Shown in pieces: positions 20,708 through 26,875 of a stretch of 64,000 nucleotides of DNA. The stretch lies in contig JADNRV010000017.1 of the NCBI GenBank assembly GCA_015499995.1, forward strand, positions 1 to 64,000. Direction: 5' to 3'. The DNA comes from Flammula alnicola. Lineage: Eukaryota > Basidiomycota > Agaricomycetes > Agaricales > Strophariaceae. A program made the position numbers and the translations under genes. Within the stretch, counting starts at the first letter, position 1; every line of letters starts with the position of its first letter. Below the pieces are notes generated by a model. The model did not search any database. It had not been told where the DNA came from and saw nothing but the letters and a program-made list of their open reading frames with translations.

Positions 20708-20716
20708 AGCCGAGAA
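20708..20716. repeat. Target-site duplication, left copy
   Basis: AGCCGAGAA lies directly before the left terminal inverted repeat and is repeated exactly at 26867-26875. Nine bases is the usual size for Mutator-like elements. Confidence 0.93.
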
Positions 20717-20756
20717 GGATAAAACTATTCAGAAACCCCCTTTCTGCCAGAAACCC
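20717..20756 (+). repeat. Left terminal inverted repeat of the MULE
   Basis: Forty bases identical to the reverse complement of 26827-26866. It is followed by further AGAAACCCC copies to about 20790, including a near-palindrome AGAAACCCCGGGTTTCT. Confidence 0.93.
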
Positions 20757-21163
20757 CGGGTTTCTGCCATTCTTGCCAGAAACCCCATATGTCGTTATTT
20801 ACATCCAAATGAGAGCATTTGTCTGCCGACTATGCCGAGGTGAGCTTGCCGTGTGATGCCGAACATGTGATGGAACCTTAGACAAGGCGTCTCTGGATCT
20901 GCCCTCTCTCGACCTCAATGTTGTCAACCACCACTATGTCTCTTTCTTCTACCCTCATGAGATTAGTGTAAATTCTTATGGTAAGCTTCAAGCTTCGTCA
21001 GGTCTATAGGAATCCATTCTAATTATCTCTTTCAGTACATAGATGTAATAACCAATTGAAGTTTACTTCCGCGTATCCGTCGTCCGAATGTTTTTGCCGT
21101 TGAAGTTTTCACTCGAAGAGGTCTTCTAAGTATTCTCCCCATCTCATCTGGCTGTTCTTCAAC

Positions 21164-24100
21164 ATGGACCAGCCATTTCGCTCTTATGCCTCTCCCCCGC
21201 CACACCTGGCCTTTTCAGCAGACTTTTTCCAAAGTCTTACTATCGCGCAAGCTGCTGAACACTCCTACCCAAGCATAGCTCCAATTGGATCAGTTTTATC
21301 GACATCTTTCTCTCAAAATATCCCTCTTTCAGCTGCTGCGACTGTCATTAGACCTGGTGAGGTCATCCCCAATTACAATGACTTGAACACAATCACATCC
21401 AATATTGAGGATGAATACCGGAAAGGTTTTCGGTCGGCTGAGGTGAAGTTTCGACATAAAGGCCTGGAATATTCTGTCGTATATCATTTCTCAAAGGTGC
21501 GCACCAGCATGGCCAGAGAATGTTATATATATCTTATATGCTTCTCTTAGCTTGAGCTCATTCGCCAATGTACTAACTATGAACCTGCGGTCAACGCCTA
21601 CCGACATCTCCTTGCCCATTTACACTCGGAACATTTCAACCTCGGTCCGGCCTTGACAACTTTTCAAGATTCACTGGTCACAGCAAGAATTCAAGGATTT
21701 TGTGTCTCGCATTTCCACCTCGACAAGCTGGGGTGTCTGTTGGGCGAATCCTGGCTCGAGGAAGATGTTTTCAATGTACTCCTTGAGTTGGCCTACTTTC
21801 GCAAGGCTTACCATACAGATGACGCTGTACAAGTCTCCGACATACTCCTTCTTCCAACTTCATTCCTGACTGATGCCCGCAGGGCCTACGAATCCATCCC
21901 TTCTGCTTATACTGAAGAAATATTGGCTGTTCGGGCACGCATTTCATCAACAAATGTACGTCTGGTGGCTATGGGCCGGGTCGATGAAGATCATTTCACT
22001 GCCTTCATCTATCGTCGTGGTTCTTCAATCATTGATTACGGTGATTCCATGCACAAGTCCCCTGCCCGCCATATCCTTCCAATCCTCCAGTGGGTCTTCT
22101 TGGACATCGCTCATCCTTCAATTACAGCTATCAAGCATGGTACCATCGCTAAGCAAAGCATTGGCCGCGGCGGAGGTAGCTGCGGAATTGCTGCTTACAA
22201 TTTCATTGAATTGGCCGCCAAAACACGCAAACGACTTCGTCCATGGAGTGGCTCAGAGGCACAACTTTTTCGTGATGCAGCTCTTGAAGATCTTATCCGC
22301 TTTCATTATCTCGCCACTCAATCCGACGGGACTTTCTCTGACTGGACTACCAAGGTTTTGGATGATGACATGACCTCTGGGGTTTCAGCTGACCTGTCTA
22401 TTGCGACCGGATATACTGATTTTAATATGTTCATTCCTTCGGTATGGCTACATTATTTCTTTTCACAAGGGATGCTAACAGGTAATCCACAGAATCGTCA
22501 CCCAATCACACGATTTGATAAGCTAGAATCAACACCTCTTCATCGTCAACTTGAATATGCCCCACGTACACAAGTTCCCTATGTTTCCGAGCTGGCCGCC
22601 TCTGTACCAACCCTCCTTCCAGCATTTGAACTCTCAGTGAAGTCCATTTCAGCCCCGCTTCCTCAGAAAGCCCCAGTATCAACCTTTATCTCCCCAACCC
22701 GCAAACCCGGCAAGCGACGTCACAGAAGTCTTGACAAGATTGACTTTACTATGATATCCCCGTCTACTCCAATTTCATTAGCGAAACAACCTGTGCCATT
22801 CAAAAAGATTGCACCTTGGCCGGACTCTCCTTCCGACATGATATTTGTCACCTCATCTCCAATTCCTATATCGACTGTCAAACCAATTCCTCATTCCTCC
22901 CATGTTATCGACCTCGTCACGCCAGAGCGCAAAATCAAGCGAATCTCTGTACCAATGGATATCAGTCCCAAGAAGCATAGCGATGATTCAGATAGTGATG
23001 TCATTCTGCTCACCATCAAACAGGAGAAGACTACCAAACCGGAACCTGCGGCAGATGTCTTCGCTCCTGAAAGGCCAAAACTATCAACCACAAAACCTGT
23101 AACCGCACCAGGAATCGTTAAGCAGGAGAAAGCCATCAAAACGGAGCCCATTATCGATCTGTGCTCACCCGAACAGCCAACCCGCCAATCTTTCAACCCA
23201 GTCAAGCATGAAAATGCATCTGAGCGATCCGTTGAGCCTTCTCCTGGTATCGTTCGTGTTGGCTCGATCTACAAAACACTTGACGATGCAAAGAATGCTA
23301 TATTTGCTCGTGAAGAAAGACTTGGCTACAATTGGAAAACAGCTCAGAGTGCGAAGGATGCTCACGGAAATCTCAAGAAGACCACATTCCGATGTAACCA
23401 CTACTCCATGCACAAACCAGCACACTCTGTCGATATTGACCCATCAGACCATCGCACCGGGAAGTCAATGAAGACGGACTGTATGGCGCATGTCAATGTC
23501 AATCGTGTGCGCGGGTCAAGTCACTTGTGGTCAATTACCTTGGTTGAATGGGACCATAACCATCCTCGCCCAATCCCTGAAGGTGCACCGATACGTCGAC
23601 CACCAACCAAGGAGCAGAAAGACGCTATTTCTCGCCTTGCCACAAGCTCGTCAAGTCGCTTCAGTCGAGGCCAGCTTGCAGATATCTTGAAGACGCAAAC
23701 GGGCAGCACCCTTGAGCCCCGTCAGATTGGGAATATCATGAACAAGGCGCGTCTTGAAGCTCGAGAAGAGGTTGGCCGACTGGGTGGGGATATTCACGCT
23801 ATCATTGCTAGCCTTGAGCAGAAGTCCCAGGAAAGACATGGATGGCGATATCACCTTAAGATGGACGATGAATCTGTTGTCACTGGAATCTGGTGGCAAT
23901 CGCCTCTGCAAAGTGAACTCTGTCGGCGATACAGTGATGTGTTGATCAATGATAACACTTACAATCGAAACCGGTCAGGCTATCCTCTCAATATCGGAAT
24001 CACAATCGACAGCCATGGCCATTCACGAAATATCTGGTATGCCTTCCATGCAATCGAGGATCGTGAACATCATGTATGGGTCCTTCGATGTCACCTCGAT

Positions 24101-25917
24101 AGTGCCGGCATTGCGCCCAATTGCTTCATGTCTGACCGAAGTGGTTCACTGATTGCAGCTGTAGAAGAAGTCTTTGTCATTACGGAACACTTCTTCTGCA
24201 TTCACCACCTCGAAGGAAATGTCGACAAGAACTTACCTGGTGTTCTTCCACCCGACCAATGGGCATCATTCAAGAACGACTTTTGGGTGGTATACCGTGC
24301 CATATCACCAGAAGATTTTGAGACAAAGTGGCGGGAACTCACTGCTCGATATCCTCCAGCACAGAAATATCTTGATGAAGAACTTTACCCCTGTCGGCGG
24401 CAGTGGGCATGGGCGTACACCGGCTACAAGTTTACTTGTGGGGTTCGGACAAATGGACGGGTTGAGGTCGAGAATCGGATCACCAAGGCATTCGGAGGCC
24501 CTAAGAAATCGCTCAAGGAACTTTTCGATGCACTGAATGAGCGCACCGATGGACAGGGTGTGCAAGAACTGATTCGAGTGAGAGATGTGCGTTCAACTCA
24601 TTTCACTGTGTCACCTTTCACTTCTGACAGATTGTGACCTTAGTCATCACGCCGTCAACATCCCTCAAGAATCGAAACAATCTTTCCTGGACCTTTGCAA
24701 GTCCTGCGTGAATTTGCTGGCCCTTTCGCGCTTGGGAAATGTTTTGAACAAATGAAGGCCAGCATGTACTACACGATGCGTGCTGTGCCACGTCCAGTTG
24801 GTATGCGAGATTGGGTGAGGCGCTTCATTGCGCTAAGTCTATGTCTGCATGTCGGCTAATATTTGAATTCATAGGATGAATATGCGGTTGAAGTAAGTGG
24901 AGATTTGGGGTATAGCTGGGAACGCGGAGAGGAACAGGTAATTTAAATATTTATTGAAGATCCTCGAGATTCCAATCTAAAGCTAATTCTTTTATTTAAT
25001 AGCGAATGATAAACGACTTCGAGAATGATAATTCACATATTTCAACACTCTTCCTACTTCGTCTAATCCGTGGGCGAGGACTGTCTGTCAAACAGCTCAT
25101 TGAGGTCAAGCATATCGGAGCAAAGTCTTCACACATAGTGGCTCTTCTCACCGATGGTAGCTACGTGTGTGACTGTTGTATGGGCATGAGCATTGGGTTG
25201 TCCTGTCGCCATTATTTTCATGTTCTCAACATGATTCCAACTCTCAAATTCAATCTTGGGGTGATTCGGGCTCGGTATGTGTTTATTATGCCAATATCAG
25301 TTAAAATCTTATAAATATCCTTTATATCTAGCTGGTACCAGGACAAAAACCTCAACTTACGAAACATACCAGAGGTCGAAGCAAGAGAGGCTGAATTTCG
25401 ACGTCTGGACGAAGATGTCCCAACATCGCAACAGACACCCCTTGTCAATTCAAATCCCCTCCAACACGTACAGCAGCCACCATCATCTACCCCTGCCCCT
25501 CCTGCGACACAGACCATTCCAGCTCGGACAGTTTTCCATGAAGCAACAGCAGCCCTCGGACCATTGATGAACCATATCCAAACTCAAGAACAACTGGACG
25601 AGTTATTAGATGGCCTCAATGAACTTCGGTGAGTATAAGGAAACACACTATCGGAAGATGAGCTTACTTTTAAGAGCAGCACATTGCGTCGACAAGCCGC
25701 TGAACGCGAGGACTTCCGCGAACCGCCAGTCCTGAATCCAAAAGGAAGACCCCGCGAGCAAAGAATAACTGGAGCTATAGAAGGCCGCCCAAGAGGAGGA
25801 GGTGCTCGGAGGAAGGCCGCGCAAGGTGAAACTGTGCGGAAATGCAGATTGTGCCGCCAACCGGGTCATACGAGAAGAACCTGTCCTTATTTAGCACCTT
25901 CAGGCGAAGTTGAATAG
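21164..25917 (+). CDS. MULE transposase fused to a Ulp1-like protease domain
   Basis: Transposase of about 1400 residues. Exon 1 starts MDQPFRSYASPPPHL at 21164; a 54-bp intron (21497-21550) joins FSK to LELIRQ. Residues about 210-360 form a Ulp1/C48-like cysteine protease domain with His259 (DEDHFTA), Asp273/276 (DYGDS) and Cys322 (GGGSCGIAAY). Residues about 480-680 are a disordered linker with SIM-like VIDLVT (563), VILLT (595) and IIDLC (645) and acceptor-like IKQE, VKQE, IKTE and VKHE. A FAR1/WRKY-GCM1-type finger follows (Cys, Cys, WDHNHP). The MULE catalytic domain has Asp912 (LINDNTYN), Asp973 (FMSDRSGS) and Glu1083 (TNGRVEVEN). Later exons carry SSRRQHPSRIETIF, a SWIM finger (YVCDCCMG...LSCRHYFH, about 25165-25220) and a terminal CCHC knuckle CRLCRQPGHTRRTC. 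The stop is at 25915-25917. It cuts and inserts the element; the protease role is inferred. A Met at 21653 is internal, not the start. Confidence 0.9.
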
Positions 25918-25948
25918 TTTCAAATACAGTCCTACTTACCTCTCGATG

Positions 25949-26774
25949 TCAGCCTTGACTCGCAAGTAAGAGAGCACGGCCACGTAGCCAAAAATTCCAA
26001 AGCAACATTCTCCTCCCTGGAGCTGAGCTATCGTCGGTGCAGTTGAGGGCCCTATGGCACTGGCGTTGGCGTTCACTTTGGCCAGTGTTGGTATCGGAGG
26101 TCATGCCGCCAACCATGAGTACTACTAGCCACAAGCGGGCCCGCCTACCAGAGATCGGTGCCCACCGCAAGTTGTTAGTTGCGAGTGCACTGCATCCACC
26201 AAAGTTCAGTGCCAGCTGCATTGGAAAGCGAACGGTGCTCTCGCGATTGTGGAGGTAGAGCTACCTGGACGTGCACTGCAAAATCTAGATGATGAATAGA
26301 TCAATAAGTATTAGTATAAACAGATGAAGCAGTTGTGCACCTGACACCTTGTCGAGCCCAGCAATGGCTCCGTTGGCGGTGCGCAATGTGCGCTGTCGAC
26401 CTTCAGTCATTGTGGCTGTCATGGCCATCATCTGTGAAGGGTAGCTTTGGCGAGAAACATCAACGAAGACGGGGGGTGACAGCCTCGATAAACGACGGAG
26501 GTGGAGACAGAACCGCTGGTGGTGGTGTGTTGTGAACTGGTTGCCTCGTGGATTGCTGCGAAGGAATTGCTGATTCTCCCTTAATGTCTACCTGCTCGGC
26601 AGAAGGGGCTGCGTGGCGAGCGACATCGATGAAGGTGGTCAGAAGACGAGAAACAATAATTGAACTGTCGATGTCACGGCCGGTCCGGGTGTTCCGAGGC
26701 CCGACCTTGCGTTTTGCCACAAAGTCACGTGTGGCAAAAGTCAAGTACGTGCTTCGGACTTTAAATCTCGGCAT
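25949..26774 (-). CDS. Second gene of the MULE, function unknown
   Basis: A minus-strand gene converging on the transposase gene inside the same element. The ATG at 26774 opens MPRFKVRSTYLTFATRDFVA, and the frame stays open past 26460 with a Ser/Pro/Gln-rich part. Near 26471-26476, a run of six G (plus strand), the frame appears to lose one base; with that allowed it continues VFVDVSRQSYPSQMMAMTAT and TEGRQRTLRTANGAIAGLDK to about 26350. An intron (about 26345 to 26265) then leads to an exon ending at 25949, reading FGGCSALATNNLRW and ARLWLVVLMVGGMTSD. I recognise no domain. Its promoter would lie in the right terminal repeat region. Some MULEs carry a second non-transposase gene, but no homology is claimed here. 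Exon 2 is tentative. Confidence 0.5.
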
Positions 26775-26826
26775 TTCTGCTGACGTTGTTTGTTCTCCCA
26801 GAAATGGGGTTTCTATATAAGCGTTA

Positions 26827-26866
26827 GGGTTTCTGGCAGAAAGGGGGTTTCTGAATAGTTTTATCC
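26827..26866 (-). repeat. Right terminal inverted repeat of the MULE
   Basis: This is the exact reverse complement of 20717-20756 over 40 bases. It is preceded inward by another GGGGTTTCT copy at about 26800. Confidence 0.93.
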
Positions 26867-26875
26867 AGCCGAGAA
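26867..26875. repeat. Target-site duplication, right copy
   Basis: AGCCGAGAA directly after the right terminal repeat, identical to 20708-20716. Confidence 0.93.

Follow-up and report, generated by a model that had tools for sequence, protein, structure and literature searches.

The genome of the mushroom Flammula alnicola carries an intact Mutator-like element (MULE) whose transposase combines a peptidase domain of the Ulp1/SENP fold with a linker containing motifs of the types that bind and accept SUMO. The element lies in the window analysed here, a stretch of 64,000 nucleotides (contig JADNRV010000017.1, positions 1 to 64,000 of the forward strand, assembly GCA_015499995.1). From the sequence and the predicted structure, we lean towards the view that this transposase is a SUMO-handling protein, uniting in one chain a SUMO-binding and SUMO-acceptor linker with a domain that would remove SUMO. 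We put forward only tentatively the wider proposal that a SUMO reader, acceptor and eraser has been kept in one transposase across three mushroom suborders, with transposition gated by, or editing, host SUMO at chromatin.

The linker, which is probably disordered to judge from its composition and gappy alignment, lies downstream of the peptidase domain. A first-pass annotation of the window had named seven motifs in it, and pattern matching recovers all of them in the same order and at the same coordinates, in a single open frame of the forward strand. The block HVIDLVTPE (22901..22927) contains the first core resembling a SUMO-interacting motif (SIM), VIDLVT, at residue 546 of the spliced protein. 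The acidic DDSDSD, the hydrophobic VILLT (23000-23014, residue 578) and the psi-K-x-E site IKQE (23015-23026, residue 583) then stand in a row (22982..23026). They are followed by the psi-K-x-E site VKQE (23117..23128, residue 617) and by a composite module of the type found in the family, IKTE-P-IIDLCSPE (23135..23173), in which the acceptor IKTE (23135-23146, residue 623) precedes the SIM-like IIDLC (23150-23164, residue 628). The last psi-K-x-E site is VKHE (23201..23212, residue 645). The residue numbers of the first-pass annotation had the right order and ran 17 too high against the spliced model, because an in-frame stretch of 51 bp that we read as an intron had been counted as coding. 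Against 2,000 composition-preserving shuffles, the four psi-K-x-E sites of the window linker (pattern [VILMFA]K.E) compare with 0.41 expected (p 0.0005) and its two [PILVM][ILVM]DL cores with 0.06 expected (p 0.003); both are literature-type patterns.

The same enrichment is found across seven linkers totalling 1,599 residues, from five species and one metagenome fragment (P0024): those of the window element, of its relative C849 (54% identical), of Agrocybe chaxingu (P0003), Tricholomella constricta (P0004), Tephrocybe rancida (P0005) and Favolaschia claudopus (P0006), and of the fragment. The four genera whose classification was looked up, Flammula, Agrocybe, Tricholomella and Favolaschia, span the suborders Agaricineae, Tricholomatineae and Marasmiineae. 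Sequences nearly identical to the window were excluded from the counts (the copies on contigs C40 and C239, and P0021, which is 100% identical over its aligned part), as were the decayed, stop-containing fragment C421 and P0007-P0020, P0022 and P0023, whose pieces stop short of the linker or leave its frame; P0024, a fragment, and P0020 lie on contigs of equal length and probably belong to one contig. The homolog searches scored the 8,000 candidates sharing most words and returned at least 22 matches, and because only these candidates were scored the family is probably larger than 22.

In the seven linkers, [VILMFA]K.E occurs 22 times versus 1.75 expected (shuffle maximum 7) and [PILVM][ILVM]DL 15 times versus 0.62 (shuffle maximum 5); in five of these proteins, the 3,974 residues of non-linker sequence contain one of each. 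The first-pass annotation had tied its proposal to the presence of the motifs in related elements, and hhDL-type cores together with at least one [VILMFA]K.E site are present in 7/7 linkers. Taken singly, P0004 is not significant for psi-K-x-E (1 found, p 0.20), nor P0003 for [PILVM][ILVM]DL (1 found, p 0.08), the remaining cores of P0003 being VINL, FIDL and ALDL. The decayed relative C421 (L042-L045, same genome) still shows IDLVT, IKQE and AIDLSTPE-like motifs in its linker, which resembles that of P0024. A further SIM-like block of the window linker, MIFVTSSP (22838..22861, forward strand, preceded by Asp), was absent from the first-pass list; look-alikes of DMIFVTSSP are EIITIDSSP in P0004, DIVEIPDSP in P0006 and DFIFVTSSP in P0024. 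The cores VIDL, IIDL, VILL and MIFV, each with D, E, S or T nearby, correspond to the sequence definition of a SIM, in which a hydrophobic core of four residues is flanked by acidic or phosphorylatable ones.

Acceptor sites and cores are also arranged in a preferred order. At 16/26 hh[DN][LI] cores, a K-x-E, whatever residue precedes the K, ends 0-6 residues upstream, compared with a mean of 6.19 and at most 13 in 5,000 trials of random placement; a K-x-E starting within 6 residues downstream is found at 1/26. The consensus of the module is [IV]K.E followed by [VI]IDLC[ST]P, as in IKTEPIIDLCSPE (window), IKSESLVIDLCSP (P0004), IKLEPTIDLCSP (P0005) and VKAESVVIDLVTP (P0024). DNA coding for [VIM]-I-D-[LF]-C-x-P occurs at seven sites in the 74-Mb genome, five of them in the window element's family; the other two form a near-identical pair at unrelated loci and read IDFCSP. 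In six-frame open reading frames (ORFs), the module was counted five times in 8,180 residues at two family loci and once in 68,677 residues at the other loci fetched. The p-values attached to IDLC[ST]P and to the spacing rules are post hoc, since these rules were first noticed in the same sequences and then counted; the wide-gap module count (19 versus 0.04), equally post hoc, is left out of the argument.

When copies of the VIDL and IIDL cores are compared between the window and C849, wobble bases vary while the I, D and L stay unchanged, which points to selection on the protein sequence. For the 21 pairs taken together, conservation is higher in motif columns than in the remaining linker (0.45 versus 0.31), in an alignment that is itself drawn to the motifs. 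The first-pass annotation had asked whether the motifs are kept while the surrounding linker drifts; motif columns are the better conserved in all 15 pairs lacking the window.

Several observations weigh against a SUMO-handling linker. Among the pairs that include the window, motif columns are better conserved in just 2/6. The motif sites change position between relatives, and some copies resemble plain duplications, so that the motif counts are not all independent. In the window alone, the acceptor-first order holds at just 1/3 hh[DN][LI] sites. A loose SIM pattern requiring three hydrophobic residues out of four shows no enrichment, either in the window linker (5 versus 4.05, p 0.39) or over the seven linkers (32 versus 28.68 expected). 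For this reason VILLT, a generic hydrophobic run unremarkable by itself, is weak evidence for a SIM; of the three SIM-like cores proposed in the first pass, it is VIDLVT and IIDLC that belong to the enriched hhDL type. Two adjacent pairs had also been singled out: the acceptor-then-SIM pair follows the order of the family, whereas neither the SIM-then-acceptor pair nor the VILLT core within it, which is no hh[DN][LI] core, is a family feature. Because the site-by-site comparison is mixed, what we claim to persist is the type, number and order of the motifs, and not any fixed site. The linkers show turnover: single copies are gained and lost without change in the type, number or order of the motifs, as is usual for short linear motifs.

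The peptidase domain (21719..22321, bounds approximate, forward strand) is supported by profile-profile comparison, catalytic residues and predicted fold, in agreement with the Ulp1-like protease of the first-pass annotation, though it has no match to Pfam C48. Alignment places the catalytic His at 21992-21994, Asp at 22043-22045, Gln at 22154-22156 and Cys at 22181-22183, with a conserved Trp at 21752-21754. These four catalytic residues are kept in 22, 21, 22 and 22, respectively, of 22 aligned sequences, down to 28-34% identity. In P0017, a metagenomic Ulp1-like domain, Asn replaces the Asp, possibly marking an inactive copy or an error. No Pfam C48 match was obtained in the window protein, in P0003-P0007 or in the 21 members of set A4, and PDB sequence and profile searches with the domain returned neither C48 nor Ulp1. 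A weak Pfam match to C57, a viral peptidase of the same clan, appears in 5/21 members (best E 0.03). As the curated C48 model is unmatched, we label the domain Ulp1/SENP-fold and CE-clan-like only, not Pfam C48.

By profile-profile comparison, the peptidase is related to the profiles of same-genome C48 ORFs (L054, L057, L060, L061, L064) as a group, single families scoring 96.7% (L061), 85.3, 67.5, 60.7 and 2.4% (L064); a profile from two host Ulp1-type genes alone gave no match (1.3%). The best-matching profiles come from multi-copy, apparently transposable element-borne ORFs and not from host genes. More generally, L054-L065 in this genome comprise several ORF families that match Pfam C48; they are nearly identical from contig to contig and apparently transposon-borne. 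Despite the related peptidase profile, the six-frame ORFs of the five C48 loci compared contain no acceptor-SIM module in 12,970 residues. The predicted structure matches SENPs, and also the deNEDDylase DEN1 and deubiquitinases; in this comparison (VIA-align 2 on candidates from Foldseek) Z differences under 1 count as ties, and the modelled fold does not discriminate among SUMO, NEDD8 and ubiquitin as substrates. A search of the genome for the host SUMO gave tandem, polyubiquitin-like sequences as top matches. SENP1-7, Ulp1 and Ulp2 have the fold and catalytic set in common with the window peptidase, which differs in being fused to a DNA transposase and is 11-16% identical to SENP and yeast Ulp1 among the entries listed. 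Several SENP/Ulp SUMO isopeptidases carry SIMs outside their catalytic domain.

The favoured reading suggests the following mechanism. The linker would act as a string of modules ([IV]-K-x-E, 0-6 residues, [VI]-I-D-L-C-[ST]-P) that bind SUMO of the host, or chromatin and repair proteins carrying it. Since SUMO-charged E2 would be kept nearby, SUMO modification of the modules' own K-x-E lysines would be likely, and the Ulp1/SENP-fold domain could then, at the donor or target site, strip SUMO from the transposase or from adjacent host proteins. The outcome would be a self-contained SUMO reader, acceptor and eraser fused to a DDE transposase, which might give access to SUMO-rich chromatin, allow escape from SUMO-dependent silencing or control activity, or bear on target choice, repair or dosage control. 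Clustered SIMs bind SUMO, and work on a ZNF451 tag indicates that a SIM near a lysine can promote its modification by bringing in SUMO-loaded E2 or an E3 (PMC12630355). The ZNF451 SUMO E3 module resembles the linker in being a short tandem-SIM segment, and it promotes SUMO attachment to the protein fused to it; it differs in having two SIMs around a PLRP motif, where the window linker has K-x-E sites before single cores.

Other explanations divide the evidence differently. The linker might truly bind and accept SUMO while the peptidase has a different ubiquitin-like protein as its substrate or serves only in regulation, leaving no single SUMO circuit. We consider this unlikely: the peptidase and the SUMO-type motifs share one protein in P0003-P0006 and in the window transposase, or neighbouring frames of one locus in C849, and the fold comparison yields ties between the substrate classes. 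Alternatively, the [VI]IDLC[ST]P cores could dock some other host protein, such as a reader of the PxDLS/CtBP type, a proline-directed kinase or the reader of such a kinase; K-x-E would then be an accessory acidic or modification site with no relation to SUMO. The [ST]P found within two residues after 20/24 hh[DN]L cores fits such docking and adds to the points against SUMO handling, as do the behaviour of the loose SIM pattern and the degeneracy of SIMs, which are easily over-called. Set against this, psi-K-x-E and hhDL motifs are enriched together, in a preferred order and spacing, in Ulp1-fold proteins, and phosphorylation adjoining SIM cores is itself documented (PMC12751080), so that docking of another partner seems to us quite improbable.

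A further possibility, that the element captured part of a host SUMO protease and that peptidase and linker are mere passengers derived from it, is already disfavoured and can be given very little weight. MULEs habitually capture genes, and plant Ulp1 domains are described as transduplicated (PMC2528002, PMC13317346). A passenger origin sits poorly, however, with the conservation of the catalytic residues down to distant relatives, with the retention of motifs in every linker and with the element-borne nature of the best-matching C48 profiles. Least credible, and largely refuted, is chance or low complexity in a Lys/Glu/Pro/Ser-rich linker. The linkers are indeed compositionally biased and some, such as that of P0024, contain duplications, which again tells against SUMO handling; yet the shuffles preserve composition and never reached the observed counts, and the module spacing and the six-frame ORF counts point the same way.

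Ulp1 domains are known from plant, hydra and lancelet MULEs as well as from Ginger1 and plant CACTA elements (PMC2836005, PMC2528002, PMC13317346); reports of such domains in these transposons go back to about 2006, and their role in the elements is described as unknown (also PMC6117577). A role of the ubiquitin/SUMO pathway in transposition was proposed in 2010 (PMC2836005). The plant Ulp1-bearing MULEs (Kaonashi/KIU, VANDAL/VANC, melon, rice and grapevine) resemble the window element in being Mutator-like with a C48-type peptidase. Both orientations of the plant ULP domain relative to the transposase are described (PMC2528002), the melon and grapevine elements having the same orientation besides the reverse-orientation KI-MULEs (PMC2528002, PMC6117577, PMC13317346). 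In KI-MULEs, ULP runs reverse to mudrA and terminal inverted repeats (TIRs) are lacking (PMC2528002), whereas the window element has its peptidase in frame and N-terminal to the DDE domain and possesses TIRs; as a same-frame fusion it falls outside the definition of Kaonashi/KIU elements (reverse ULP, non-TIR). It differs further in its K-x-E/SIM linker between peptidase and DDE domains, the plant proteins being compared by description. The hydra Mutator and Ginger1 and the lancelet Mutator likewise encode an Ulp1 domain with the transposase; in Ginger1 the N-terminal part is Gypsy-integrase-like and Ulp1 lies at the C terminus, and the passages of that source that were consulted mention no SIM or acceptor motif (PMC2836005). 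A review doubts SUMO as the target of plant KIU domains (PMC6117577), and Arabidopsis Ulp1-carrying VANC (KIU) proteins are tied to silencing escape by hypomethylation, with the role of Ulp1 unknown (PMC13317346). Transposition of Sleeping Beauty is activated by the host factor HMGXB4, and SUMOylation of this factor mitigates the activation (PMC10138897). Among the papers listed by searches of the open-access literature, judged by title and abstract start, none deals with SIMs or SUMO-acceptor motifs of MULE transposases and none with Ulp1-bearing fungal MULEs; the terms Ulp1, C48, protease and SUMO do not occur in the main text of a Mutator survey (PMC6446971), and an article on SUMO in recombination does not mention transposition in the portion available (PMC4030836). 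As far as these searches reach, a fusion of Ulp1 and MULE domains in a fungus, joined by a linker with conserved acceptor-plus-SIM motifs, is new.

The element itself (20717..26866, forward strand, 6,150 bp) is bounded by perfect 40-bp TIRs, identified by sequence match (left 20717..20756, forward; right 26827..26866, reverse), and by identical 9-bp target-site duplications (TSDs) AGCCGAGAA at 20708..20716 and 26867..26875. TSDs of Mutator-like elements usually measure 8-11 bp. Other full-length copies, each with its own 9-bp TSD, lie on contigs C40 (13 mismatches and 1 gap column over 6,150) and C239 (23 mismatches and 29 gap columns over 6,150). The exons of the window and C239 copies show zero indel differences; exon 2 of the C40 copy has one frame-breaking deletion. 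Five short non-autonomous derivatives of 636-639 bp in the same genome have exact 9-bp TSDs and resemble the window element over their left 333-383 bp (74-76%) and right ~160 bp (93%); more diverged derivatives of 608-613 bp likewise have exact 9-bp TSDs (all loci among L013-L017, L031/L035, L032 and L034). The near-identical full copies and the exact TSDs of the short derivatives indicate that the family probably moved recently, and the window element's transposase possibly mobilised the derivatives. The right end of the element (26681-26757) resembles many short repeats genome-wide, 76-97% identical and in both orientations.

The transposase gene (21164..25917, forward strand) comprises eight exons in the spliced model (21164-21496, 21551-22441, 22493-24586, 24644-24814, 24875-24937, 25003-25274, 25332-25628 and 25680-25917) and encodes 1,452 amino acids with zero internal stops; its seven introns were placed from GT..AG signals and homologs. 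The 51-bp in-frame stretch at 22442-22492, bounded by GT..AG, is gapped in homologs P0003-P0005, represented by a few residues in P0006, and is probably an intron. The protein runs from an N-terminal region through the Ulp1-fold peptidase, the linker with a basic stretch, and the FAR1-like and MULE DDE domains to a SWIM signature and a CCHC knuckle. The basic stretch KPGKRRHR (22703..22726, in the spliced protein) may be a nuclear localization signal; by eye, the aligned region is basic in C849, P0003, P0005 and P0024, weaker in P0004 and absent in P0006. The FAR1-like DNA-binding domain (23318..23566) scores 25.5 bits, short of the Pfam cut-off of 28.1, versus 30.6 bits in C849, where peptidase, linker, FAR1 and MULE domains are spread over two neighbouring frames. 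The MULE DDE domain (23942..24211) matches PF10551 with 48.8 bits (cut-off 27.6). The SWIM-type zinc-finger signature CDCCMGMSIGLSCRH (25168..25212) and the CCHC zinc knuckle CRLCRQPGHTRRTC (25843..25884) are pattern matches only; all these features lie on the forward strand.

A conserved acceptor-plus-SIM linker beside an Ulp1-like domain gives strong grounds, at the level of sequence, for assigning one such transposon family to the SUMO pathway, and its cores, acceptor lysines and catalytic cysteine offer simple targets for point mutants. If the favoured reading is true, this would be, as far as the open-access searches reach, the first known case of a DNA transposase equipped with a SUMO-handling circuit of its own, and its linker would provide a short natural module coupling SUMO binding to SUMO attachment.
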